A stretch of DNA of 16,386 bases from positions 1-16,386 of the forward strand of contig REAV01000083.1 in assembly GCA_004294465.1 (NCBI GenBank), written 5' to 3'. The notes beneath the pieces are model-generated. The model worked only from the letters and a program-made list of their open reading frames with translations, was not told the DNA's origin and searched no databases. Origin of the DNA: Sphingobacteriia bacterium. Its GTDB lineage: Bacteria; Bacteroidota; Bacteroidia; Chitinophagales; Chitinophagaceae. How positions within the stretch are numbered: the first letter of the stretch is position 1; every line of letters starts with the position of its first letter. The translations under genes were made by a program, and so were the position numbers. Shown here piece after piece: positions 107 through 14,448 of this stretch.

Positions 107-322
107 TTATTTTAATCCATATAATTTAATTTCTTGCTTATAATTTTCATTTCCTGTAGAAGCCAATTTACCTGTGTAAATTAATTGATCCGTCACACCA
201 CCCAAAGCAGAAACAACCAGAACAAGAGGCTCTTGTTTAATCGCCTTTAATACAATATCAACTACCTTATTAATATTAGTTGCATTGGCTACCGAACTAC
301 CCCCAAATTTTAAAACTTGCAT
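107..322 (-). pseudogene. Truncated aspartokinase / ThrA N-terminal fragment
   Basis: The 71 residues begin MQVLKFGGSSVANATNINKV and continue through VVSALGGVTD. These match the first strand, phosphate-binding loop and following segment of aspartokinases, especially the N-terminus of bifunctional aspartokinase/homoserine dehydrogenase (ThrA) from Bacteroidota. A complete ThrA is about 800 residues. Here homology stops near residue 66 (YKQEI) and the frame ends at TAA five residues later. Translation of 1-106 in the same frame gives no aspartokinase-like sequence, so the break is a truncation or rearrangement and not a single frameshift. It lies 31 bases downstream of ilvA on the same strand and would be co-transcribed. 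The fragment cannot be a working kinase. It is either a remnant of a thr gene once next to ilvA (threonine is the IlvA substrate) or a partial duplication. The conserved start and well-preserved motifs suggest the break is recent. Confidence 0.7.
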
Positions 323-1629: not shown

Positions 1630-3114
1630 TCAAGCGTTTGTATTGATGGTCTTCATATCGGTCATGGCTTGTCTTAATTCTTCGCCAATTAATTCTACCG
1701 GATGATAACGAATAACTGCATTCACCGCAATCAAAGTTTTATTATCTACACCAGCATCTTTACCAGTGTTAAAATTTTTCCCGATCACATCTGTATCTAT
1801 TTTTTTCATGAAATCAGCAAGCAATGGTTTACATGCATGATCAAATAGATAACATCCATATTCTGCTGTATCAGAAATCACTCGATTCATTTCAAATAAT
1901 TTTTTGCGGGCAATGGTATTGGCGATTAATGGTGTTTCATGCAACGATTCATAGTATGCAGATTCTTCTTTAATGCCGGCTTCTACCATTGTTTCAAAAG
2001 CCAACTCAACACCTGATCTTACAAAAGCCACCATTAAAAGTCCATTGTCGAAAAACTCCTGCTCTGCAATTTTCATAGACCCTGGCGTTGTTTTCTCAAA
2101 AGCTGTTTCTCCAGTAGCCGCTCTCCAGGTCAATAAGTTTTTATCATCGTTGGCCCAATCAGCCATCATCGTTGAAGAGAAAACGCCACTCATGATATCA
2201 TCCTGGTGTTTTTGAAAAAGAGGCCGCATAATATCTTTCAATTCTTCAGATAACTCGAATGCTTTTAATTTAGCAGGATTGGAAAGTCTATCCATCATAG
2301 CGGTAATACCTCCTTGCTTCAAGGCTTCTGTTATCACTTCCCAACCATACTGAATAAGCTTAGCAGCATAAGCTGCGTCAATTCCTTTTTCGATCATTTT
2401 ATCGAATGAAAGTATAGAGCCAGTTTGCAATAATCCACATAAAATTGTTTGCTCGCCCATCAAATCGGACTTCACTTCAGCAACAAAGGAAGATTTCAAA
2501 ACACCTGCACGATGACCACCAGTTCCTACACAATATGCTTTTGCGTAATCCCAACCTTTTCCTTCAGGATCGTTCTCTGGATGAACTGCTATTAATGTAG
2601 GCACCCCAAATCCTCTTTTGTATTCTTCACGCACTTCAGTTCCAGGACATTTTGGAGCAACCATAATAACAGTAATGTCTTTTCTGATTTGCATTCCTTC
2701 CTCTACAATATTAAACCCATGGGAATAAGACAATGTTGCCCCATGCTTCATCAATGGCATTACTGCAGAAACAACAGCAGTATGTTGTTTATCTGGAGTT
2801 AAGTTAATTACTACATCTGCAGTAGGAATCAATTCTTCATAAGTACCTACTTTAAATTGATTATCGGTTGCATTTTTCCAGGAAGCTCTTTTTTGCTCAA
2901 TTGCATCTTTACGCAATGCATAGGCAATATCTAATCCAGAATCTCGAAGATTCAATCCTTGATTTAATCCTTGTGCTCCGCAACCAATGATTACCATTTT
3001 TTTTCCTTTCAGCGAATTGATGCCATCTGCAAAAGCAGTTTTGTCCATAAACTCACAAGTACCTAATTGATTGAGTTGCTCGCGAAGTGGTAAAGAGTTA
3101 AAATAATTTGCCAT
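1630..3114 (-). CDS. ilvC: Ketol-acid reductoisomerase (NADP+), class II
   Basis: Mg2+-dependent isomerisation and NADPH reduction of 2-acetolactate or 2-aceto-2-hydroxybutanoate to the dihydroxy acids of the valine/leucine and isoleucine branches. At 494 residues it is the long class II form with a duplicated knotted C-terminal domain. It is strikingly close to E. coli IlvC throughout (for example [20 protein letters not shown] and [19 protein letters not shown]). The nucleotide-binding loop GCGAQG starts at residue 44. R68, R76 and S78 match the E. coli residues that bind the NADPH 2'-phosphate, which indicates NADPH preference. The metal-site acidic residues lie in KSDLMGEQ. The start is [14 protein letters not shown], aligned with the family start. 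It follows ilvN after a 51-base gap in which I see no hairpin or terminator. Confidence 0.97.
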
Positions 3115-3165: not shown

Positions 3166-3753
3166 TTACATGGTAAAAACCTGGTCTGCTTTGTCTAGAA
3201 ACTCATTCTCAATGAGCTCTTCAGCTGGTTCAACAGCTTCAAACTCTTTCAGCTTTTCATGAAAACCTTTACTGGCTTTAATGATCGCTACTCTTGCACT
3301 TCTCACAAATTCTATAAGTCCATAAGGAGCCAATACTTCCACTAACCTATCTGTTTCTTCTCTGTGCCCGGTAGTTTCAAAAATGGTATAATCTTTTCTG
3401 ATAACAACTGCTCTTGCTCCATATTCGCGCAACAATCTTTCTACTTTCAATTTTTCTGCAACTTCATCAGTAGAAACTTTGTATAATGCCATTTCCTGCC
3501 AGATGATTTCTTCATTGGTATTGAAATATGCTTTAAGTACTTCAATTTGTTTTTCAATTTGTCTGCAAAGTTTGCGAACCACTTCCTCTGTTTCGTTTAT
3601 TACCACTGTAAAACGATGAATGCCTTCTGCTTCAGATGGTGAAACATTCAGGCTTTCGATATTAATTTTTCTCCGGGAAAAAATAATAGCAATGCGGTTT
3701 AATAAACCAACTTGATTTTCAGTATAAACAGTAATGGTATATTCTGCTTTCAT
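3166..3753 (-). CDS. ilvN: Acetolactate synthase small (regulatory) subunit
   Basis: Regulatory subunit that activates the IlvB catalytic subunit and normally confers valine feedback inhibition. The N-terminal ACT domain spans about residues 3-75 (YTITVYTENQVGLLNRIAII, then RRKINIESLNVSPSE and IHRFTVVIN). The C-terminal ALS small-subunit domain follows to about residue 170 (RLLREYGARAVVIRKDYTIFETTG, then YGLIEFVRSARVAI). The length of 195 residues is within the family range, with an extra acidic tail (FEAVEPAEELIENEF). The start is 7 bases after the ilvB stop, as expected for subunits made in step. I see nothing unusual in the ACT domain; the glycine of the VGLLNRI turn, often needed for valine binding in this family, is present. 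Confidence 0.95.
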   Translation of the reverse strand: MKAEYTITVYTENQVGLLNRIAIIFSRRKINIESLNVSPSEAEGIHRFTVVINETEEVVRKLCRQIEKQIEVLKAYFNTNEEIIWQEMALYKVSTDEVAEKLKVERLLREYGARAVVIRKDYTIFETTGHREETDRLVEVLAPYGLIEFVRSARVAIIKASKGFHEKLKEFEAVEPAEELIENEFLDKADQVFTM

Positions 3754-3760
3754 TTGTTGA

Positions 3761-5527
3761 TTATTTTAATCTGATTTCTGATACACTGCAACCTTGCGGT
3801 ACCATGGGGAATACATTGTTTTCTTTACCAACCATCACTTCCAACAAATAAGAACCATTGTGCTCAAGCATGGTTTTAAGTGCCGATTTTAATATTGTTC
3901 GATCATCTACTGATTGCCCCGCAATACCATAAGCTTTTGCCAATTGAACATAATCAGGGCTTTGAATATCTACGAAAGAATAACGCTTGTCGTTAAACAA
4001 TTGCTGCCATTGGCGGACCATTCCTAAAAAGCGATTGTTCAGTATCAAAATTTTTACATTCAATTCGGTTTGCATGATGGTTCCCATTTCTTGCAAAGTC
4101 ATTTGAAATCCACCATCACCAATAACGGCAACTACCGTTCTATCCATCGCCCCAAATTTTGCCCCAATTGCAGCTGGTAAGGCAAAGCCCATTGTTCCCA
4201 AACCCCCAGAAGTGACATTGCTTTTAGATTGATTGAATTTGGCATATCTGCAAGCTACCATCTGGTGTTGTCCTACATCAGTTACTATAATTGCATCACC
4301 ATTGGTGAGTTCATTTAATAAATGAATGACTTCTCCCATGGTAATTTCACCTTCTTTAGGATGCAATTCTTCTTGTATAACTATGTCGATTTCTTGTTGA
4401 GTATACTCATTGAATTTTGCTAACCAAGCAGTATGTTGTTTTGCTTCGATCAATTGAGTAAGCATTGGCAATGTTTCCTTGCAATCGCCCCATACAGGCA
4501 CATCTGCTTTTACATTTTTATCTATTTCAGCAGGATCAATATCCAAATGAATAATTTTAGCCTGTTTGGCATATTTATCTAACCTTCCAGTTACCCGATC
4601 ATCAAATCGCATTCCTATTGCAATCAATACATCACATTCATTGGTCAACACATTGGGGCCATAGTTTCCATGCATACCCAACATTCCAACGTTTTGCGGA
4701 TGATCGGTTGGCAATGCACTTAAACCGAGGATTGTCCAAGCTGCCGGCAAACCGCCTTTTTCAATAAATGCTTTAAACTCTTTTTCGGCTTTACCTAAAA
4801 TGATCCCTTGACCAAAAAGTACAAATGGTTTTTTTGCCTGATTAATCAATGCAGCTGCCTGTTCTATATATTCTTTACGAATGATCGGTTTAGGACGATA
4901 ACTTCTGATATGATCACATTTTATATATCCTTCGTAATTGAATTTTTGAATCTGTGCATTCTTAGTGATATCAATTAATACAGGACCTGGTCTTCCGGTA
5001 CGAGCTATATAAAATGCTTTTGACAATACATGCGGAATTTCAGCAGCATCAGTTACTTGACAATTCCATTTAGTTACAGGTGTAGTAATATTGATTACAT
5101 CGGTTTCCTGAAACGCATCGGTACCTAATAGATGCGCAAATACCTGGCCAGTTATGCAAACCAATGGTGTGCTATCAATCATAGCATCAGCTAAACCAGT
5201 TACTAAGTTGGTTGCACCAGGCCCGCTTGTTGCAAACACAACCCCTACTTTTCCACTACTGCGTGCATAGCCTTGCCCAGCATGTATTCCACCTTGTTCA
5301 TGACGAACTAGAATATGTTTTAATTGATCATTGTAATCGTACAATGCATCATAAATAGGCATGATAGCTCCACCAGGATATCCAAAAATAGTATCTACTC
5401 CTTCTGCAATACAGGCTTCTAAAACAGCTTGTGAGCCGGACAACTCACCCCCCTGACCCCCCTGAAGTGGGGGATTTAGTATCGCCGTTTTATTTTTACT
5501 TTCTATTTCAGTATTTACTGTATTCAT
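3761..5527 (-). CDS. ilvB: Acetolactate synthase large (catalytic) subunit
   Basis: ThDP- and FAD-dependent condensation of pyruvate with pyruvate or 2-oxobutanoate, the shared second step of valine/leucine and isoleucine synthesis. The catalytic glutamate is E77 in RHEQGG. The ThDP motif runs from GDGGFQMTLQEM to LILNNRFLGM. The tryptophan in MVRQWQQLF is the family residue linked to 2-oxobutanoate preference. The central FAD domain is present, and the full 588 residues cover the family. The N-terminus is odd. Before the usual family beginning (SGSQAVLEA, residue 30) there is a tail MNTVNTEIESKNKTA followed by residues 17-27, LNPPLQGGQGG, encoded by a C/G-rich palindromic repeat. No other ATG lies between the tail and the core, so the ATG at 5525-5527 is taken as the start. 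The gap to ilvD is 46 bases and contains a second copy of the repeat. Confidence 0.96.
   Translation of the reverse strand: MNTVNTEIESKNKTAILNPPLQGGQGGELSGSQAVLEACIAEGVDTIFGYPGGAIMPIYDALYDYNDQLKHILVRHEQGGIHAGQGYARSSGKVGVVFATSGPGATNLVTGLADAMIDSTPLVCITGQVFAHLLGTDAFQETDVINITTPVTKWNCQVTDAAEIPHVLSKAFYIARTGRPGPVLIDITKNAQIQKFNYEGYIKCDHIRSYRPKPIIRKEYIEQAAALINQAKKPFVLFGQGIILGKAEKEFKAFIEKGGLPAAWTILGLSALPTDHPQNVGMLGMHGNYGPNVLTNECDVLIAIGMRFDDRVTGRLDKYAKQAKIIHLDIDPAEIDKNVKADVPVWGDCKETLPMLTQLIEAKQHTAWLAKFNEYTQQEIDIVIQEELHPKEGEITMGEVIHLLNELTNGDAIIVTDVGQHQMVACRYAKFNQSKSNVTSGGLGTMGFALPAAIGAKFGAMDRTVVAVIGDGGFQMTLQEMGTIMQTELNVKILILNNRFLGMVRQWQQLFNDKRYSFVDIQSPDYVQLAKAYGIAGQSVDDRTILKSALKTMLEHNGSYLLEVMVGKENNVFPMVPQGCSVSEIRLK
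5447..5478 (+). repeat. C/G-rich short palindromic repeat, copy inside ilvB
   Basis: On the plus strand: C6 (5448-5453), TGA, C6 (5457-5462), TGAAGT, G5 (5469-5473), then ATTTA. The inner C5/G5 arms form a strong hairpin with a 6-base loop. This composition is unlike the surrounding AT-rich gene. The repeat is in frame with ilvB and encodes residues 17-27, LNPPLQGGQGG. Peptides such as NPPL(K/Q)GG are a familiar sign of interspersed C/G-run repeats read through by ORF callers in Bacteroidota and cyanobacteria (general knowledge; no search was done). It resembles a REP-type element. I see no transposase in the window. Confidence 0.7.
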
Positions 5528-5573: not shown

Positions 5574-7253
5574 TTATATTTCATCAGTTACACAACCTTC
5601 AGAAGCATCTTTCACTGATTGTGCGTATTTAAACAATAATCCCTTTGTTGCATTTGGTGCAGGTTTTACCCATTTTGCTTTTCGTGCTGCTATAATATCA
5701 TCTGCAACTTTTAAAGTCATTTTTTTGGTGGCCACATTTAACTCAATGATATCATCATTCTCTACCAGCCCAATCAATCCTCCACTTACTGCTTCTGGTG
5801 TAATATGCCCTACAACAAAACCATGTGTTCCGCCACTGAATCTTCCATCTGTGATCAATGCAACAGACTTACCCAAACCTGCGCCAATAATGGCCGATGT
5901 AGGCTTGAGCATTTCAGGCATACCGGGTGCGCCCTTTGGGCCCACGTTTCTGATTACTACTACATCACCTGCCTTGATCAAGCCAGAATTAATTCCTTCA
6001 ATCAAAGCTTTTTCACCATCAAAAACCCTTGCAGGGCCTTCAAATAATTCACCTTCTTTTCCACTGATCTTTGCTACACTTCCTCCTGTTGCTAAGTTTC
6101 CAAACAATATTTGTAAATGACCTGTTGATTTGATTGGTCGCTCAATAGGTAGAATTACTTTCTGCTGATCAAAATCTAAATCAGGGATATCAGCCAAATT
6201 TTCAGCAATGGTTTTTCCTGTTACTGTTAAGCAATCTCCATGCAACATTCCTTTACTCAATAAATATTTCATTACTGCAGGAATGCCACTGTATTGATGA
6301 AGATCTTGCATCAAATAAGTGCCGCTTGGTTTGAAATCGGCCAATACAGGAACTTTATCACTGATGCGTTGAAAATCGGCCAAAGTAATTTCAACATCAA
6401 CACTTTTTGCCATGGCAATTAAATGCAATACTGCATTGGTACTTCCACCCAAAACCATTACAATGGTGATTGCATTCTCGAATGCTTTAAAAGTCATAAT
6501 ATCTTTAGGGCAAATATTTTTTTCCAGTAAAACTTTAATGGCTTTACCTGCAGCCAAACATTCATTTTGTTTATCATCACTCAATGCTGGGTTTGAAGAT
6601 GAAAAAGGTAAACTCATACCCAATGCTTCAATTGCTGAAGCCATAGTGTTAGCCGTATACATTCCCCCACAAGCACCAGCTCCAGGACAAGCATGTTGTA
6701 CAATGCCTTTAAAATCTTCTTCATTTAAATTACCGGCCAACTTTTGACCTAATGCCTCAAATGCTGAAACGATATTTAAATGTTGTCCTTTATAATGACC
6801 TGCAGCAATTGATCCACCGTATATCATAATGGCTGGTCTATTCAATCTTCCCATTGCTATCAAGGAACCTGGCATATTTTTATCACAACCAGGCAAAGCA
6901 ATTAATCCATCATAATATTGAGCTCCACAAACCGCCTCAATTGAATCTGCAATTACATCTCTACTCACTAAGGAATAACGCATTCCATCAGTTCCATTAC
7001 TAATTCCATCACTAACGCCAATCGTATTAAAAATCAATCCCACTAAATCATTTTCCCAAACACCTTTTTTTACCACTTTAGCTAAATCATTCAAGTGCAT
7101 ATTACAAGTATTGCCATCATAGCCCATACTAACTATACCCACCTGTGCTTTTTTAAGATCTGATTCAGTTAATCCTATACCATACAACATTGCTTGCGCT
7201 GCAGGCTGCGTAGGATCTTGTGTAATTGTTTTACTGTATCTATTTAATTCCAT
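5574..7253 (-). CDS. ilvD: Dihydroxy-acid dehydratase
   Basis: Iron-sulfur dependent dehydration of 2,3-dihydroxy-3-methylbutanoate/-pentanoate to the 2-oxo acids used for valine, leucine and isoleucine. The three cysteines expected to bind the cluster are visible: C50 ([11 protein letters not shown]), C123 ([10 protein letters not shown]) and C195 ([17 protein letters not shown]). The C-terminal domain carries [19 protein letters not shown]. The length of 559 residues equals the family norm, so the gene is intact. The start [10 protein letters not shown] lies 8 bases after the ilvE stop. The 3' end runs directly into the C/G-rich repeat. The cluster type ([2Fe-2S] or [4Fe-4S]) cannot be settled from sequence by eye. 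Confidence 0.97.
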
Positions 7254-7261
7254 TGCTTTGA

Positions 7262-8134
7262 TTAATTTTTTTCATGCACTAAATCAGTATAGGCTTTTTG
7301 AATTTTTGCTCCTACACTATTTTGCCATTGTTTTGGAAATACTGTTGTATCAATTGATTCCCATCCTATTATTTCTGCTGCAGTACCACAAAAAAATGCA
7401 GCATCTGCTTCTTTTAATTGTTGAATGGTATAAGTACCTTCTGTTACCTGAATATGTAATTGCTCACAAATTTCAAAAACGGTGGCCCTTGTTATACCAG
7501 GAAGAATATGCCCTAATTCGGGTGTATATAAAGCGCCATCTTTCTCAAAAAAAATATTTGCACCAGGTCCTTCTGCTATATGATCGTTCATATCTAATAA
7601 TAGCGCTTCGTCAAATCCCTTTGCTTTTGCTTCCTGACTAGCCATAATAGAATTTACATAATGCCCTGCTGCTTTTGCATGAATCTTAAAGGCTTTAGGG
7701 TTGGGTCTTTGAAAAGAAGAGGTCATCACCCGCAATAATTTATCACCCAAAAAAGGAGCCATTTCCCAAGCTTCAATAAATAAATAGGATTCAGTATTAA
7801 CAGCAAAACTCATATTTGCTGGTGCATAAACTACAGGACGTATATATGCATTTTGAAAATTATTTTTCCTCAATACTTCATAAGTAGCATCAATTAAATC
7901 TTGTGTATGATAGGTATAAGGAAGATTGATGGATTGTGCTGAAACTTTCAATCTTTCAAAATGTTCGATGGGCTTAAAGATTTTAGTTTCGCCACTGGCA
8001 GTTTGATATGATCGAATACCTTCAAAAACAGAATATCCATAATGCAAAGACTGGGAATACAGATCCATTTTTGCATCAGCTGCTTTCACAAATTGTCCAT
8101 TGTGAAAAATAATTGTTTCGTTATTATAATACAT
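7262..8134 (-). CDS. ilvE: Branched-chain amino acid aminotransferase (class IV)
   Basis: PLP-dependent transfer of an amino group between glutamate and the 2-oxo acids of valine, leucine and isoleucine, the last step of all three branches. Fold-type IV features are clear: [13 protein letters not shown] (residues 31-43), the PLP lysine K154 in [26 protein letters not shown], and [12 protein letters not shown]. At 290 residues it is of the short bacterial IlvE size. D-amino-acid transaminase and aminodeoxychorismate lyase share the fold, but operon position and motifs favour IlvE. It is the first structural gene after the attenuator. The ATG lies about 20 bases past the terminator T-tract, and the upstream sequence has no Shine-Dalgarno, as is usual in Bacteroidota. 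Confidence 0.95.
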
Positions 8135-8155
8135 ACAACGTTTATTTCAAGTAAC

Positions 8156-8182
8156 AAAAAAACCCCGCTTTTGGCAGGGTTT
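8156..8182 (-). terminator. Intrinsic terminator of the ilv attenuator
   Basis: Minus-strand stem AAACCCTGC (8182-8174) pairs with GCGGGGTTT (8168-8160): nine pairs including one U-G, with the 5-base loop CAAAA. Seven consecutive T (8162-8156) follow, the first three of them part of the stem. This is a classic Rho-independent terminator, yet it stands just upstream of ilvE and after the BCAA-rich leader ORF, so its role must be conditional. It would also end read-through transcripts coming from leuB. Confidence 0.85.
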
Positions 8183-8219
8183 ATATTTTAAGTTTTTAGC
8201 TTTTTTATAAAACACCACC
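8173..8219 (-). promoter_or_regulatory. Candidate antiterminator pairing in the ilv leader
   Basis: The minus-strand segment GGTGGTGTTTTATA (8219-8206), which encodes the last leader codons (Gly-Gly-Val-Leu-stop), can pair with TATAAACCCTGCC (8185-8173), which contains the terminator 5' arm. TTTATA/TATAAA gives six perfect pairs. After a bulged T, GGTGGTG pairs with CCCTGCC with two U-G pairs and one mismatch. This pairing and the terminator exclude each other. A ribosome stalled at the Ile/Val codons would leave the segment free, while one at the leader stop would cover it. This was worked out by hand; no folding energies were computed. Confidence 0.65.
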
Positions 8220-8327
8220 TTTCAACAAAGGAATAATAATGACAATTGTAATAATTGTCATTGCACTAATTGTAGTATAGATTCCTTTATTCAAAATGGT
8301 ATTCATTAGAGAACTAAAGATAATCAT
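8205..8327 (-). CDS. ilv operon leader peptide (attenuation peptide)
   Basis: A 40-codon ORF between leuB and ilvE. Its last 18 residues read MTIITIVIIIPLLKGGVL. By my count the whole peptide has 11 Ile, 5 Leu, 2 Val and 5 Thr. The dense block lies at residues 24-35. The VIIIP core is reminiscent of the E. coli ilvGMEDA leader peptide IlvL, which also runs through Val-Ile-Ile-Ile-Pro. In-frame ATGs at 8327, 8306 and 8261 are all possible starts; the shortest gives an 18-residue peptide holding the full control block. The stop (8207-8205) lies 22 bases before the terminator stem. The peptide itself needs no function: its translation rate would report charged Ile/Val/Leu tRNA levels to the downstream ilvE-D-B-N-C-A operon. 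This assignment is inference from position, codon content and RNA structure. Confidence 0.85.
   Translation of the reverse strand: MIIFSSLMNTILNKGIYTTISAMTIITIVIIIPLLKGGVL
8240..8260 (-). repeat. Perfect inverted repeat within the leader control codons
   Basis: TGACAATT (8260-8253) and AATTGTCA (8247-8240) form eight perfect pairs around a 5-base loop. The hairpin lies over codons 23-30 of the leader peptide, the start of the Ile/Thr/Val block. It may be an RNA pause or protector hairpin in the attenuator, or may simply follow from repeated ACA/ATT/GTC codons. Confidence 0.5.
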
Positions 8328-8370
8328 ACTTAAGTAGAAAACAAAGAACTATTCGAAATAATATTATTAT

Positions 8371-8386
8371 ACAAACAACTGTTTGT
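8371..8386. promoter_or_regulatory. 16-bp palindrome after leuB, possible ilv operator
   Basis: ACAAACAACTGTTTGT consists of perfect 7-base arms around a 2-base centre. It starts at the base right after the leuB stop codon. No T-tract follows on the minus strand, so a terminator is unlikely. It lies 44 bases upstream of the first leader ATG, where an ilv promoter would be expected, so a protein-binding site is possible. No clear Bacteroidota -7 box (TAnnTTTG) was found; TTCTTTG at 8348-8342 is the nearest partial match. Confidence 0.35.
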
Positions 8387-9499
8387 TTATATAATGGTTG
8401 AAGCATTTAGTGTAGCATTGCTACTCAACTCTTTTTTATTGTTTCTTTTTATATAGTCTGCTATTAAATCTCCAATAGCTGCTGTTCCATAGTTGTTGAT
8501 AGGATCAATGTCTTTTGAAACAAAACTGTGTGTTAATGTCCAGTTGACTGCTTCTCGAACCAAATTAGCTTCTGTATATAAGTTGAAATGGTCTAACATC
8601 AACGCAGCAGACAAAACGGATCCCAAAGGATTAGCTATATCTTTTCCGGTTGCCTGAGGATAGGAACCATGTATCGGTTCAAACAAAGCCGATCCATTTC
8701 CGATTGATGCAGATGGCAGTAAGCCCAATGAACCACTCAATACACTTGCTTCATCGCTGATAATATCTCCAAACATATTCTCAGTAAGTACCACATCAAA
8801 CTGAGCAGGGTTGATGATTATTTGCATTGCCGCATTATCAACAAACATATAATCTACAGAAACATCGGGGTATTGACTTGCCAATGACTGTACTACTTTT
8901 CGCCATAATCGCGAAGTTTCCAACACATTCGCTTTGTCAATCAGGGTTAATTTTTTTCTTCTTGTTTGAGCAGATTTAAATGCCAGGTGAGCAACTCTTT
9001 CAATTTCATAAGAATGATAAGCGCACTCATCAGTTGCAAAAGTTTGATCTTCGTTTAAAGATCGCTTTCCAAAATAAATGCCCCCTGTAAGTTCTCTAAA
9101 AATAATAAAGTCAACACCTTGTAGTTGCTTTGTTTTTAATGGAGATAAATGAGCCAAAGAAGCATAAGTATTGATGGGTCTGATATTTGCAAACAACTCC
9201 AACTCCTTGCGTAATTTCAACAAGCCTTGTTCAGGGCGAACTTTTGCTGAAGGATCATTGTCATATTTAGGATGGCCTATCGCTCCAAATAAGATAGCAT
9301 CGCTTTGCTTGCAAATAGCTACAGTCTCATCTGGCAGCGGATTTCCTGTTTTATCAATTGCATCTGCTCCCATTAAAGCATGAGCAAATCTAAACTGATG
9401 GTCAAACTCCAATGCAATGGTATTGAGTACTTTTATAGATTGCGCCGTTACTTCAGGGCCAATACCGTCTCCGTTGACTACTGCTATCTTCTTATCCAT
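8387..9499 (-). CDS. leuB: 3-isopropylmalate dehydrogenase
   Basis: NAD+-dependent oxidation and decarboxylation of (2R,3S)-3-isopropylmalate to 4-methyl-2-oxopentanoate. Family motifs are present: VVNGDGIGPEVTAQS near the N-terminus, ELTGGIYFGKR, DNAAMQIIINPAQFDVVLTENMFGDIISDE with the metal-binding aspartates, and FEPIHGSYPQATGKDIANPLG for NAD binding (GSYPQATGKDIAN type, not NADP). The start chosen is the ATG at 9497-9499 (MDKKIAVVNGDG), one base after the leuD stop (TAATATG), giving 370 residues. A longer in-frame start at 9529 would add [10 protein letters not shown] and overlap leuD by 29 bases; that extension has no family counterpart. The C-terminal tail NNKKELSSNATLNASTII is longer than usual and Ser/Asn rich. 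Confidence 0.95.
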   Translation of the reverse strand: MDKKIAVVNGDGIGPEVTAQSIKVLNTIALEFDHQFRFAHALMGADAIDKTGNPLPDETVAICKQSDAILFGAIGHPKYDNDPSAKVRPEQGLLKLRKELELFANIRPINTYASLAHLSPLKTKQLQGVDFIIFRELTGGIYFGKRSLNEDQTFATDECAYHSYEIERVAHLAFKSAQTRRKKLTLIDKANVLETSRLWRKVVQSLASQYPDVSVDYMFVDNAAMQIIINPAQFDVVLTENMFGDIISDEASVLSGSLGLLPSASIGNGSALFEPIHGSYPQATGKDIANPLGSVLSAALMLDHFNLYTEANLVREAVNWTLTHSFVSKDIDPINNYGTAAIGDLIADYIKRNNKKELSSNATLNASTII

Positions 9500-9500
9500 A

Positions 9501-10088
9501 TTATTCTTTGGTACTTTTTTCGAATTCACTGATGAGTTCCTTTTTGCTTAACAAAAAATCGATATCGTCATACCCATTTAATAAACAGGTTTTTTTATAT
9601 GGATTGATCTCAAAATGAGATGAAGCTCCAGTGGTATCAATGGTAATTGTTTGAGCTTCTACATTAATTGTAAGAGTTGATTCATTTCCTTGTTGAAATA
9701 TTTCCTGCAGAAAATTGTCTGAAACAGTTACTGGCAAAACACCGTTATTCAATGCATTGTTTTTAAAAATGTCGGCAAAGAAGCTTGAAACCACTGCATT
9801 AAATCCATAATCTAATAAAGACCAGGCAGCATGTTCTCTGGAAGACCCACAACCAAAGTTTTTTCCTGCAACTAATATTTCTCCTGTATACTGAGGTTGA
9901 TTCAATGCAAAATCTTTTTTCGGCATTGATTCATCATTATTAATATAACGCCAATCACGAAACAAGTTTTTTCCAAATCCTTCTCTGGTGGTTGCTTTTA
10001 AAAAGCGTGCAGGAATGATCTGATCGGTATCAATATTTTCCATTGGCAATGGAACAAAACGACTATGTATTTTTTGTAAAGCTTTCAT
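9501..10088 (-). CDS. leuD: 3-isopropylmalate dehydratase small subunit
   Basis: Small subunit of isopropylmalate isomerase, which with LeuC converts 2- to 3-isopropylmalate. It has the swivel-domain signatures [20 protein letters not shown] near the N-terminus and [21 protein letters not shown], the substrate-contact loop of the family, then [20 protein letters not shown]. The length of 195 residues fits the LeuCD-type bacterial enzyme. It starts 9 bases after leuC and ends one base before the leuB start, so leuC-D-B are very likely translated from one message. Confidence 0.96.
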
Positions 10089-10097
10089 TTTTATTAA

Positions 10098-11498
10098 TTA
10101 TATCAACGCTCTAATATCTGTTACTACACCTGTAATTGCTGCTGCTGCAGCAGTTAATGGGCTTGCCAATAATGTTCTAGCTCCAGCACCTTGACGTCCT
10201 TCAAAATTTCTATTGGATGTACTAATACAATATTCTCCAGCAGGAATTTTGTCTTCATTCATTCCTAAACAAGCACTACAACCCGCTTGCCTTACCTGAA
10301 AACCAGCTTCCGCAAAAATTTGATCAAGTCCTTCGGCATGTACTTGTTTTGCTACTTGTTGAGAGCCTGGCACTATCATTACATGCACCGAACTATTTTT
10401 CTTTTTACCTTTTACCAAAGCAGCCACTTCTCTTAAATCTTCAATTCTGGAATTGGTACAACTCCCAATAAAAATATGTTGCACAGGCATCCCTAATAAA
10501 GATGCTCCTGATTCAAGCCCCATGTATTGCAATGCTTTGATAATATTATTTCGCTCGCCTTCATCAGCAATATTATCCGTTATAGGAATATTTCCATTGA
10601 TGGCAATGCCTAATCCTGGATTGGTTCCATAAGTAATCATCGGTTGAATATCTGCTGCGTTGATATTGATTTCACTATCAAAAATGGCATCCGAATCAGA
10701 ATACAATTGACTCCATTCATTGATGGAATCGTTCCATGCGGTTCCTTTTGGAGCGAAGGCTCTACCTTTTATGTATTCAAAACAAGTTTCATCTGGAGCA
10801 ATCATTCCACCTCTTGCACCCATTTCTATACTCATATTACAAATGGTCATTCTTGCTTCCATAGAAAGAGATCGGATGGTAGTTCCTGCATATTCAACAA
10901 AATAACCTGTTGCCCCACTCGATGAAATTTTTGCAATGATGTAGAGTATGATATCTTTAGAAACAACTCCTTTTTGTAAAGCGCCTTCGATATTGATGCG
11001 CATTGTTTTAGGTTTTGTTTGTAATACACATTGAGAAGCAAAAACCATTTCAACTTCACTGGTACCAATTCCAAACGCAATTGTACCAAATGCGCCATGG
11101 GTGGAAGTATGACTGTCTCCACATACAATGGTCATACCTGGCTGAGTTATGCCTAATTCAGGACCAATCACATGCACAATACCTTGGTATGGATGACCTA
11201 AGCCATATAATTCAACTCCATGCTTCTCACAATTTTCAATCAATTGCTCTACCTGCATTCGAGATAACTCATCTTTAATGGGCAAATGCTGATTTAAAGT
11301 AGGAACATTATGATCAGCTGTTGCAATGGTTTGCTTTGGCCTGAAAAGTGAAACACCTCTTTGTTCAATTCCTTTAAATGCTTGCGGACTTGTTACTTCA
11401 TGAATAAAATGTCGATCGATGTACAAAACAGAAGGACCATTGTTAATAGTTTCTACAACATGTTTGTCCCAGATTTTATCGAAAAGTGTTTTTCCCAT
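10098..11498 (-). CDS. leuC: 3-isopropylmalate dehydratase large subunit
   Basis: Large, [4Fe-4S]-bearing subunit of isopropylmalate isomerase of the aconitase family. The start [15 protein letters not shown] is the family start. [25 protein letters not shown] is visible in the first domain. The cluster cysteines are in [11 protein letters not shown] (about residue 347) and [10 protein letters not shown] (about residues 407 and 410). The C-terminus [19 protein letters not shown] is typical. At 466 residues it is complete and matches the E. coli LeuC length. The gap from leuA is 15 bases. Confidence 0.97.
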
Positions 11499-11513: not shown

Positions 11514-12680
11514 TTATGCAATTGCATTTTCTGGAACATGGGCTTCTGCCATTGCTCTCAGATCGCTTTCTACTACTTCTTTTTTACTATCTGCAATTTT
11601 TACAAATGCCTGATACAAATGATCGATATCATTTCTATTAAATTCATACCCCAATTTTTGAAAACGATATGCAAGTGCACTTCTCCCACTTCTTGCAGTC
11701 AATACAATTTTACTTCCTTCAGCACCTACCTGTTCAGGATTAATGATTTCGTATGTCTGAGCGTCTTTTAAAAATCCATCTTGGTGAATTCCGGAAGAAT
11801 GTGAAAATGCATTTGCGCCAACAATTGCTTTATTGGGTTGAACAGGCATACGCATGATATCTGATACTTCTCTGCTCAAAGGATTGAGCATTTGTGTTTT
11901 AATATTGGTATAAAGCCCTAAGTGTTTGTGTTGTTGAATGATCATTACCACTTCTTCTAAAGAAGTATTTCCTGCACGCTCTCCTAATCCGTTAATGGTA
12001 CATTCTATTTGTCTAGCGCCGTTAATAACACCACTAATGGAGTTGGCTGTTGCTAATCCTAAGTCGTTATGACAATGACATGAAAGAATGGCTTTATCCA
12101 TATTAGGTACATGGTTCATTAAATAAGCGATTTTTTCGCCATACTGATAAGGCAGGCAATAACCAGTGGTATCTGGTATATTTACTACCGAAGCTCCTGC
12201 AGCAATAACTGCTTCAACTATTCTTGCTAAGTATTCGTTATCGGTTCTACCAGCATCTTCTGCAAAAAATTCCACATCATCGGTAAAATTTCTTGCCCAT
12301 TTAACTGCTTGAATAGCTCTTTCTAAAATTGCTTCTTGAGTGGTATTGAATTTTGCTTTGATATGAAAATCAGAAGTGCCAATACCAGTGTGAATGCGTG
12401 GACGAACTGCATATTTTAATGCTTGTGCTGCAACTTCTATATCTTTTTGTACCGCTCTGGTTAATCCACAAACAGTTGCTTTTTTGATTACCCTTGATAT
12501 GGCTTGAACCGATTCAAAATCGCCAGGACTAGAAATAGGAAATCCTGCCTCAATAATATCAACTCCTAATTCTTCTAATTGAAGGGCTAAAGCTAATTTT
12601 TCTTTTGTGTTGAGTTTACAGCCTGGCACTTGTTCCCCATCACGAAGTGTGGTATCGAAAATCTGAATTTGTTGATCCAT
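11514..12680 (-). CDS. leuA: 2-isopropylmalate synthase, short form without regulatory domain
   Basis: Condenses acetyl-CoA with 3-methyl-2-oxobutanoate, the first committed step to leucine. The HMGL-like TIM-barrel motifs are clear: [17 protein letters not shown] (R13 and D14 in the active site), the metal-binding [13 protein letters not shown], and [15 protein letters not shown] linker subdomain with [11 protein letters not shown] follows. The protein ends at residue 388, about where the C-terminal leucine-binding LeuA dimer domain begins in the roughly 510-residue enzymes, so feedback control by leucine through that domain is absent. Such short LeuA proteins are, to my knowledge, common in Bacteroidota. 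Homocitrate or citramalate synthase are alternatives within the superfamily, but the leuCDB neighbours favour LeuA. It is the first gene of the leu unit, 25 bases after a hairpin with T-tract. Confidence 0.94.
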
Positions 12681-12704
12681 AACCCTAATTTGAATGATAT
12701 TGAT

Positions 12705-12765
12705 AAAAAGACAGGCTCGTGTAGGTTGTTATTGATTGCCTTAAATAACAACTGTACGGCCTGTC
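12705..12765 (-). terminator. Terminator-like hairpin in the leuA leader (candidate attenuator)
   Basis: Minus-strand GACAGGC (12765-12759) pairs with GCCTGTC (12716-12710). Stacked inside are CGT/ACG with one bulged A and, past a small internal loop, GTTGTTATT (12752-12744) with AATAACAAC (12733-12725). The loop is 10 bases. Nineteen pairs in all are followed directly by TTTTT (12709-12705). A T-tract follows only on the minus strand. No minus-strand gene lies upstream that would need ending, because the neighbour is divergent, so the hairpin most plausibly controls leuA read-through. No leucine-rich leader ORF was found. If the leuA transcript starts downstream of it, the hairpin would have no role in leuA. 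Confidence 0.65.
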
Positions 12766-12767
12766 AT
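12741..12767 (-). CDS. Possible 8-codon leader ORF in the leuA attenuator
   Basis: ATG-ACA-GGC-CGT-ACA-GTT-GTT-ATT-TAA encodes MTGRTVVI. The ORF fills the 5' arm of the leuA leader hairpin almost exactly and stops in its loop. A ribosome slowed on the Val-Val-Ile codons would physically block the hairpin. It is the only ATG-started minus-strand ORF I find between 12900 and leuA. It is so short that chance is a real alternative. Confidence 0.3.
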   Translation of the reverse strand: MTGRTVVI

Positions 12768-12768
12768 A

Positions 12769-12818
12769 TTCGAATGTAGAATGTATTATCTTCGAAATTG
12801 GATCAATATTGATTCGAA
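12769..12818. promoter_or_regulatory. Three TTCGAA palindromes at 22-bp spacing
   Basis: TTCGAA occurs at 12769-12774, 12791-12796 and 12813-12818, exactly 22 bp apart, about two helical turns. A 12-bp perfect palindrome ATCAATATTGAT (12802-12813) overlaps the third. All lie in the region between divergent leuA and the plus-strand gene, just upstream of the leuA hairpin. Another TTCGAA is in the ilv leader (8352-8357) near the expected promoter. They may be a regulator-binding array; the regulator is unknown. The rest of 12681-12891 shows no clear promoter consensus. Confidence 0.35.
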
Positions 12819-12891
12819 AATACACTGGTTAAGGAACAACAATTCGGCTAAAACCCTTACCAGTATTGATTTTTTGAACAAACAAATTACG

Positions 12892-14448
12892 ATGCCCAAC
12901 CGCAGCGCAGATGCCCTTTTTCAATTGGTTCATTCACTAGAAAGGGCAGAAAAACGCAATTTTAAGCTATATATGACCAGAAATTCGGCTTCTGGCAACC
13001 TTAAAGTAATTCAGCTATTTGATGCGCTCGATAAAATGAAGGACTATGACGAGTCGGTATTATTGGCTAAAAACCCAACTATTCAAAAACAACAGTTATC
13101 TAATTTAAAGGGCCATCTATATCAAGAGATCTTAGCTAGTTTAAGATTATTAAAACAAGAAAGCAATATTGATCTTCAATTGCACGAGCAATTGGACTTT
13201 GCCAGAATTTTATACAACAAAGGTTTGTACTTGCAGAGTTTGAAAATATTAGACCGGGTTAAAGACTTAGCAAAAGCAAATAACCAGGTTACATATATAC
13301 AGCAGGTTTTGTTTTTAGAGAAAAAGATCGAAAGCTTACATATTACCAGGAGTATGCAAGACAGAGCAGATGTATTGTGTAATGAAGTAGATGAAACCAA
13401 TGCCCGTTTAGAAATCATCAGTAAGCTATCCAATATTGCCCTCTTACTATACGCATGGTACATCAAACATGGAATCGCCAGAAACGAAGAAGATAAAAAA
13501 GGCTTAGATGCCTATTTTAAAGACCCTGTTTTTAATGAATCGCAATTGTATAAAGGTTTCTACGAAAGACTATACCTGAATCAATGTTATTGCTGGTATG
13601 CATTTATTAATCAAGAATTCTTATTGTATTATAGACATACGCAAAAATGGGTAGACCTTTTTCATTTGGAACCTAAAATGATTGAAGTGGAAACTGCGCA
13701 TTATATCAAAGGGATGCACAATTTATTATCCGCGCATTTTGATTTAAGGAATTATAGAAAGTTCAATGAAACCATTTTAATATTTGAGCAATTCATTAAT
13801 ACTCCTATTGTTCAGGAAAATCAGAATAACCTGATACAAACATTTACTTATTTGTATACTGCCAAATTGAATAAGCATTTCATGGAAGGCACATTTACAA
13901 AGGGTATACAGCTGGTCCCGGAGATTGAAGCTAAACTAAAAGAGTATGAATTATACTTAGATGGGCATCGAATTTTAGTATTCTATTATAAGATTGCATC
14001 ATTGTATTTTGGAAGTGGAGATAGTGAAAAAAGTATTGATTATTTAAATAAGATCATCAATTTAAAATTAGACCTCAGAACAGATCTACAATGTTATGCG
14101 CGTTTATTGCACCTGATTGCACATTATGAATTGGGAAATTATGAGTTATTACAATACTTATTAAAATCGGTCTACCGATTCATGGCCAAAATGCAAAATT
14201 TAAGCACAGCGGAAGAAGCCATATTTGGATTTTTGAGAAATGCCTTTAGCAGTTCGCCCAAAAAAGTAAAACCACTTTTTGAAAGTTTATTGATTGAATT
14301 AAAATTAATTTCCGATCAGCCTTTAGAAAACAGGGCATTTATGTATTTGGATATTATATCGTGGTTGGAAAGTAAGATTCAGCAAAAGCCTGTTCAAACA
14401 ATTATTCGACAAAAGTTTTTGGCTTCTAAAAAGAGAATGAACGACTAG
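12892..14448 (+). CDS. Uncharacterised helical-repeat (TPR-like) cytoplasmic protein
   Basis: I do not recognise a named family. The 518-residue product has no signal peptide or membrane segment. It is nearly all predicted helix, with repeating Leu/Tyr/Ala patterns such as LHEQLDFARILYNKGLYLQ and DSEKSIDYLNKIINLKL that look like tetratricopeptide-type helical pairs. The N-terminus has a compact conserved-looking block (SLERAEKRNFKLYM, then LFDALDKMKDYDES and QLSNLKGHLYQEIL). A scaffold or protein-interaction role is possible but unproven. The start chosen is the ATG at 12892 (MPNRSADALFQLVHSLERAEK). A longer in-frame start at 12781 adds 37 residues that look like non-coding DNA and would run over the TTCGAA array. 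It is divergent from leuA, and its stop codon shares CTAG with the convergent kinase gene. Confidence 0.85.
   Translation: MPNRSADALFQLVHSLERAEKRNFKLYMTRNSASGNLKVIQLFDALDKMKDYDESVLLAKNPTIQKQQLSNLKGHLYQEILASLRLLKQESNIDLQLHEQLDFARILYNKGLYLQSLKILDRVKDLAKANNQVTYIQQVLFLEKKIESLHITRSMQDRADVLCNEVDETNARLEIISKLSNIALLLYAWYIKHGIARNEEDKKGLDAYFKDPVFNESQLYKGFYERLYLNQCYCWYAFINQEFLLYYRHTQKWVDLFHLEPKMIEVETAHYIKGMHNLLSAHFDLRNYRKFNETILIFEQFINTPIVQENQNNLIQTFTYLYTAKLNKHFMEGTFTKGIQLVPEIEAKLKEYELYLDGHRILVFYYKIASLYFGSGDSEKSIDYLNKIINLKLDLRTDLQCYARLLHLIAHYELGNYELLQYLLKSVYRFMAKMQNLSTAEEAIFGFLRNAFSSSPKKVKPLFESLLIELKLISDQPLENRAFMYLDIISWLESKIQQKPVQTIIRQKFLASKKRMND

Follow-up and report, generated by a model that had tools for sequence, protein, structure and literature searches.

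The gap between leuB and ilvE in the 16,386-nt stretch of Sphingobacteriia bacterium DNA analysed here (hereafter, the window) very probably carries a ribosome-mediated transcription attenuator for ilvEDBNCA. The features computed for this element are a leader ORF, an intrinsic terminator, conservation of Ile and Val codons, an alternative pairing and a promoter-like motif. Control of the ilv genes by a leader peptide through attenuation had been proposed in an earlier note on this DNA, and the proposal gains computational support from relatives, as an Ile/Val-rich leader ORF together with a terminator was found in 114 of 129 ilvE upstream regions (105 distinct ones once identical regions were removed). 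The homologous gaps, whose comparison the same note had suggested, likewise retained Ile/Val codons in 114 of the 129.

Gene order, leader ORF and predicted promoter

According to the best NCBIfam models, the window carries a row of leuA (11514-12680), leuC (10098-11498), leuD (9501-10088) and leuB (8387-9529), followed by ilvE (7262-8134), ilvD (5574-7253), ilvB (3761-5527), ilvN (3166-3753), ilvC (1630-3114) and ilvA (354-1619), all on the minus strand; leuB is the last gene upstream of the attenuator and ilvE is the first gene proposed to be controlled. The leuB-ilvE gap comprises 252 nt (8135-8386) and contains the ORF at 8205-8327 and, nearer ilvE, the intrinsic terminator. Directly downstream of ilvA, an aspartokinase-like stretch (122-316, minus strand; 54.9 bits, under the family cut-off) covers only the N-terminal part of the model, and might tie Thr/Ile precursor supply to the leu-ilv row. 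Divergent from leuA, an ORF of 555 residues (12781-14448, plus strand) had no Pfam match at 0.001.

The 40-codon ORF described in the earlier note is present in the leuB-ilvE gap at exactly 8205-8327 (minus strand); it encodes MIIFSSLMNTILNKGIYTTISAMTIITIVIIIPLLKGGVL, followed by a stop codon, and its C-terminal end is MTIITIVIIIPLLKGGVL. The control codons (8232..8261, minus strand) encode MTIITIVIII, an Ile/Val run with two Thr. When the 252-nt gap was subjected to 2000 dinucleotide shuffles, the window's 8 Ile/Leu/Val of 10 residues were reached in 71 and its 9 of 12 in 52, its 7 Ile/Val of 10 in 8, and its 11 Ile/Leu/Val/Thr of 12 in 3 and 12 of 16 in 29. By itself, the composition of the window ORF is only moderately unusual in such AT-rich DNA, which is suggestive and not decisive, and the case for a leader rests on the relatives, where the observed Ile/Val density was reached by 5 or fewer of 100 shuffles in 100 of the 105 distinct loci.

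Upstream of the leader lies a promoter-like motif of the Bacteroidota type (8345-8315, minus strand), recognized by its sequence only, with a -33 element TTTG (8342..8345, within TTCTTTG) and, 19 nt from TTTG, a -7 element TATCTTTA (8315..8322; consensus TAnnTTTG). The -7 box of Flavobacterium psychrophilum spans -12 to -5 (PMC9723704), which places the predicted transcript start of the window near 8310, upstream of the core of the ORF and not downstream of it, the position that the earlier note had held to be damaging to a leader. Since the ATG at 8327-8325, with which the ORF had been taken to begin, precedes this predicted start, ATG 8306 is the first usable one in frame after the promoter-like motif and is the likely start codon. 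The likeliest extent of the leader is hence 8205..8306 (minus strand; 33 codons, MNTILNKGIYTTISAMTIITIVIIIPLLKGGVL and a stop codon), and the codons ahead of this ATG are probably not translated from the predicted promoter. The box-to-ATG distance is 8 nt in the window and 2-21 nt (one 52, median 17) in 59 relatives with the GTTCTTT form of the motif, so that a later TTG (8294) may instead be the start codon.

Across the 105 leaders, GTTCTTT-N16-24-TAnnTT[TC][GA] was found upstream of 62, the window included, compared to a mean of 0.2 and a maximum of 1 over 20 shuffle rounds; the strict textbook form, TTTG-N19-21-TAnnTTTG, was found for only 10, the window not among them. At least one of four promoter patterns was matched at 87 of the 105 loci, and the 18 matching none are nine of the ten Chryseobacterium-type loci (L047-L056) and nine others.

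Distribution of the element among relatives

The 129 ilvE upstream regions consist of 59 loci from named records, 30 loci that a search across 195 genomes of this family returned, with the window itself among them, and 40 further stretches from that search. Five partial matches (two in G047 and one each in G043, G076 and G135) were left out, as were many matches with at most 34% identity, which are other aminotransferases. The terminator-anchored scan required at least 5 Ile/Val in 10 codons, with L057 the lowest at 5, so that a few chance ORFs could be among the 114. Leaders of the Sediminibacterium type (L009, L013, L014, L015, L022), which are missed by an earlier scan scoring Ile/Leu/Val over 10 residues, were found by reading the gaps and were recovered by the terminator-anchored scan. 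Leader-bearing loci include those of Sediminibacterium, Flavihumibacter and Chitinophaga, and also of Chryseobacterium and Epilithonimonas, which belong to another order. At the leader loci of Chitinophaga, Chryseobacterium and Epilithonimonas, the 2.5 kb ahead of ilvE showed no leu gene.

The leader and terminator pair was lacking in 15 of the 129 regions. In 11 of these (L002, L007, L008, L012, L018, L020, L036, L060, L108, L111 and L117), leuB ends 3-43 nt before ilvE and there is neither leader nor terminator, which points to a fusion of operons in which the attenuator was lost; among them is the nearest relative found, L002 (IlvE 89%), with 12 nt from the leuB stop to the ilvE start. Gaps of 213, 86 and 80 nt with no leader or terminator were seen in L043, L045 and L125, respectively, and L059 (48% identity, different gene order) has a terminator and no ORF above the cut. 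Ahead of leuA, no copy of the leader was seen by eye, either in the window or in nine of ten relatives lacking it before ilvE; in the tenth, L140, only part of leuA is present. In the genome from which the window comes, no Thr leaders were seen by eye before two aspartokinase genes, and hisG had no match in what is an incomplete assembly.

A phylum-wide search for ilvD gave matches in 109 of 148 genomes, and 30 returned loci were inspected, 8 of which carry a leader and terminator before ilvD, with 6 to 8 Ile/Leu/Val in 10. Those of L159, L160 and L165 are candidate leaders located more than 200 nt from ilvD and may be chance, and those of L152, L154, L167, L169 and L170 lie within 80 nt of ilvD. 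The latter are Ile/Val/Thr-rich, have other sequences (e.g., MMQISIIITSVVVVNVIHTSASGML) and come from other families of the phylum. At the remaining 22 loci, the gene upstream of ilvD is ilvE in twelve, leuB in four and neither in six.

Terminator and alternative pairing

The ORF is a candidate attenuator because an intrinsic terminator (8155..8182, minus strand), formed by a stem of 9 pairs at 8182-8160 (-12.3 kcal/mol) and a U-run, stands between it and ilvE, the first structural gene, which is where an attenuator calls for one. This terminator had gone unmentioned in the earlier note. On the same strand, segment 2, GGTGGTGTTT (8210..8219; Gly-Gly-Val and the start of a Leu codon), represents the antiterminator arm, and segment 3, AAACCCTGCC (8173..8182), can pair either with segment 2 or with the 3' arm of the terminator. 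A further hairpin, AAUGACAAUU-AUUAC-AAUUGUCAUU (8238..8262, minus strand), lies inside the control codons and is protector- or pause-like.

In the relatives, the 5' arm of the terminator (CCGCCTCC) can pair with the last codons of the leader (GGAGGTGG), most of which encode Gly. The duplex between leader 3' end and terminator 5' arm has a median of -16.9 kcal/mol, compared to -8.4 for shuffles, and was matched by 5 or fewer of 100 shuffles in 99 of 105 loci. A Gly-bearing pair starts four codons after the Ile/Val run in 77 of the 105. Clades differ in their arms, yet complementarity is kept, as illustrated by GGAGGTGG with CCGCCTC in L005, GGAGGATAGG with CCTTCCTCC in L024 and GTGAGAGGG with TCCTTCTCAC in L057. 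Across the relatives, the predicted antiterminator has one arm in common with the terminator and would be masked by a ribosome that has reached the stop codon; in the window, the pairing of GGUGGUGUUU with AAACCCUGCC is present but weak (-8.0 kcal/mol vs -6.4 for shuffles, z -1.0), and L003 (z 0.3), L009 (-0.9) and L091 (-1.4) also had weak duplexes among the 16 loci listed.

Folds were also computed in which a ribosome footprint blocked the A-site codon together with 15 nt upstream and 13 nt downstream of it, with the transcript cut ahead of the terminator 3' arm; the 5' arm was considered engaged if paired upstream over 6 nt or more. The geometry of this footprint is a crude approximation, since a stall at the last Ile of E. 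coli ilvL (L204), folded under the same setting, produced no antiterminator. The 5' arm was engaged in 102 of 105 loci with the ribosome at the last Ile/Val codon and in 101 with the ribosome in mid-run, as opposed to 14 once it was placed at the stop codon; in the window, it was engaged with a stall at the last Ile and free in mid-run and at the stop. The stalled fold was stabler by 4 kcal/mol or more in only 54 of the 105 loci, and in the window the fold with the ribosome at the stop (-18.9) was stabler than the one for a ribosome stalled on the last Ile (-8.5), because the freed leader RNA folds on itself. With no ribosome, the 5' arm was engaged upstream in 98 of 105 loci, and protector-like pairing of the last codons occurred in 26 of 105; the window belongs to the protector type, with its 5' arm unengaged, so that its default state differs from that of most loci.

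Amino acids probably sensed by the leader

Leader ends such as IIIVVVIIIPATHGGGTCM, VVVVVIIIPALNGGASCI, VVIIVVVIISHQYGG and IIILVILVIIGFRW are typical of the relatives, and the densest ten residues of the 105 loci are composed of 50% Ile, 35% Val, 2.5% Leu and 0.8% Thr. The family-wide run thus consists of Ile and Val, and Leu is peripheral. The third codon positions, predicted earlier to be free, are not, as Ile is encoded by ATT in 449 of 530 codons and Val by GTG or GTC in 306 of 363 across the 105 leader cores; the codon changes do, on the other hand, lean towards synonymous ones. For 38 near pairs that do not overlap, the single-base codon changes within the 14 core codons comprised 65 synonymous and 62 non-synonymous ones in the leader frame (51%, about twice the 27% expected at random); the two remaining frames gave 21% (random 21%) and 9% (random 17%). 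A codon run for the products of the pathway is, accordingly, conserved as codons. In the 105 leader cores, GTG and GTC are strongly preferred over GTT and GTA for Val, and ATT for Ile.

The earlier note held that the peptide senses all three end products of the pathway, and a leader sensing the three branched-chain amino acids and Thr equally would account for the close spacing of Ile, Val, Leu and Thr codons in the window peptide, but it appears rather unlikely given the low shares of Leu and Thr in the densest ten residues. Among the 105 loci, two Leu between the Ile/Val run and the Gly codons are found in the window only, and stalls at these two Leu codons would set the footprint on or beside segment 2, with no clean antiterminator resulting in the folds. 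The dominant amino acids are most likely Ile and Val, with Thr a possible addition in this species and Leu a doubtful one.

Proposed mechanism and alternative explanations

For the attenuator, translation of the leader, ribosome stalling and termination in the cell are steps that we infer. RNA polymerase would start at the Bacteroidota-type promoter just upstream and would make the 33-codon leader. With ample charged Ile- and Val-tRNA, the ribosome would reach the stop codon and cover the Gly-Gly codons of segment 2, which would allow the terminator at 8182-8160 to form ahead of ilvE. If Ile- or Val-tRNA were short, the ribosome would stall in the run TIVIII, segment 2 would stay uncovered and could base-pair with the terminator's 5' arm, and the polymerase would continue. 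Evidence against an attenuator comes from the weak antiterminator of the window and the lack of an antiterminator from a mid-run stall there, as well as from the fold energies, the differing default state of the window, the nearest relative and the ten other leaderless loci with an adjoining leuB, and the three longer gaps that also lack a leader.

Alternatively, the stem could be a plain terminator of the leuACDB transcript, followed by an independent ilvE promoter, with the Ile/Val ORF an accident of AT-rich DNA. The position of the terminator between leuB and ilvE would agree with this, as would the 71 of 2000 shuffles that reached the Ile/Leu/Val density of the window. A plain terminator is nevertheless very improbable, as the leader is kept with a synonymous bias in 114 of 129 loci and is also present where no leu gene was found in 2.5 kb (Chitinophaga, Chryseobacterium, Epilithonimonas), a promoter-like motif stands upstream of the leader, and leader and terminator are both absent where leuB abuts ilvE. 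That the small peptide is itself active, for example in the membrane or in trans, would fit the hydrophobic Ile/Val runs and the report that the attenuator leader peptide peTrpL acts in trans (PMC7298713), but appears most unlikely, as by eye the residues outside the run vary, save for the Gly codons that form the RNA arm, and the ORF precedes a terminator and is able to pair with the 5' arm of the latter.

With an attenuator as the preferred explanation, the sequences of more than 100 loci would make classical ilv attenuation a standing device in Chitinophagaceae and some Flavobacteriales (both assigned by name), and would also provide an example of an attenuator that is absent where two operons are fused. 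In this phylum, where translation is initiated through signals other than Shine-Dalgarno (PMC9723704), the element could serve to report on Ile/Val sensing and on the coupling of transcription to translation.

A conserved hairpin before leuA

Directly before leuA, the window contains a long conserved hairpin (12703-12768, minus strand) with a covarying stem and the loop GCAAGCAA / GGCAGGCAA / GGCAATC, which is followed by a U-rich stretch in some loci. A covariance model was built from 17 of the 38 leuA upstream regions inspected and is biased to these 17, because presence of the motif, judged by eye, was the basis of their choice; the hairpin is visibly absent from several of the 38. The model gave 34 listed matches in 29 of 98 family genomes, 26 of which are located directly before leuA by coordinates (that of the window and those in 25 of the 97 other genomes), with 13 of these 26 in genomes outside the model; the other 8 listed matches are weak (E 2.7e-4 or worse) and located elsewhere than leuA. 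In 119 genomes of the class, two weak matches were found besides the window, with no leu or ilv gene in the stretch fetched. The 7-pair core showed 97.5% pairing and 13 double-changed cells, and none of 500 shuffles reached either value or the covariation score; the number of pairs with double changes (3) was reached by 84 of 500 shuffles and that of pair types by 309. No Rfam match at gathering level was found in 11 of the loci with this hairpin, and a search of the open-access literature found no paper on it. A Leu leader peptide within the hairpin was considered and rejected, as LLLL occurs in one frame in individual species and, by eye, start codon and frame are not kept.

It is conceivable, as a tentative reading, that two serial RNA devices govern the leu-ilv row, namely an ilv attenuator in a Bacteroidota form and an undescribed leuA leader RNA, possibly a new cis-regulatory class. 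In the ilv device, the antiterminator would be written in the Gly codons of the leader, and untranslated RNA would default to readthrough in most relatives examined.

Comparison with known systems

Attenuators have reportedly been predicted by comparative genomics by Vitreschak and co-workers in 2004 and by Lopatovskaya and co-workers in 2010, and the former are said to have named Bacteroidetes/Chlorobi among the groups with candidate attenuators. These predictions reportedly include Ile/Val/Leu leaders with alternative hairpins, in which they resemble the present element. For F. psychrophilum, which belongs to the same phylum and another family, hints of attenuation by leader peptides upstream of amino acid operons have been described, in an article whose main text does not contain the term "ilv" (PMC9723704). 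Leaders that likewise control ilv genes have been described in other phyla, including the attenuator peptide of the S. aureus ilv-leu operon, which is called leucine-rich (PMC5794164), and the uORF of Corynebacterium ilvBNC, which is a leader peptide (PMC10272879). A search of titles and abstract starts in the open-access literature found no paper on an ilv leader in Chitinophagaceae.

As to a T-box or another leader of the Rfam collection, no family reached its gathering score in the window, and ten relatives gave three chance-level matches far below gathering (rnk_pseudo, Cgb105 and rli40; E 0.08-0.14). In the Pfam comparison, neither the window leader nor those of four relatives matched PF08046 (IlvGEDA_leader) at E values up to 10, and E. 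coli IlvL matched it at 4.2e-17; the Chryseobacterium-type leader is too short for this profile test. The likeness to IlvL that was noted earlier is weak in the window taken alone, where 21 of 1000 residue shuffles align as well. Hence, the window leader is predicted to work like E. coli IlvL, and membership in the Pfam family is unsupported by the profile search.

Similarities to the E. coli K-12 ilvL attenuator of ilvXGMEDA (L204) include a short leader, VVVIIIP before a G-rich stretch, a terminator about 22 nt past the stop codon and ilv genes downstream. Unlike E. coli ilvL, the window has its antiterminator arm in Gly codons, a Leu content that is not conserved, a Bacteroidota-type promoter lying a few nt ahead of the start codon and a position between leu and ilv genes. 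The mechanism is thus classical and well known, and is here conserved in a bacterial group on which little has been written in this respect.
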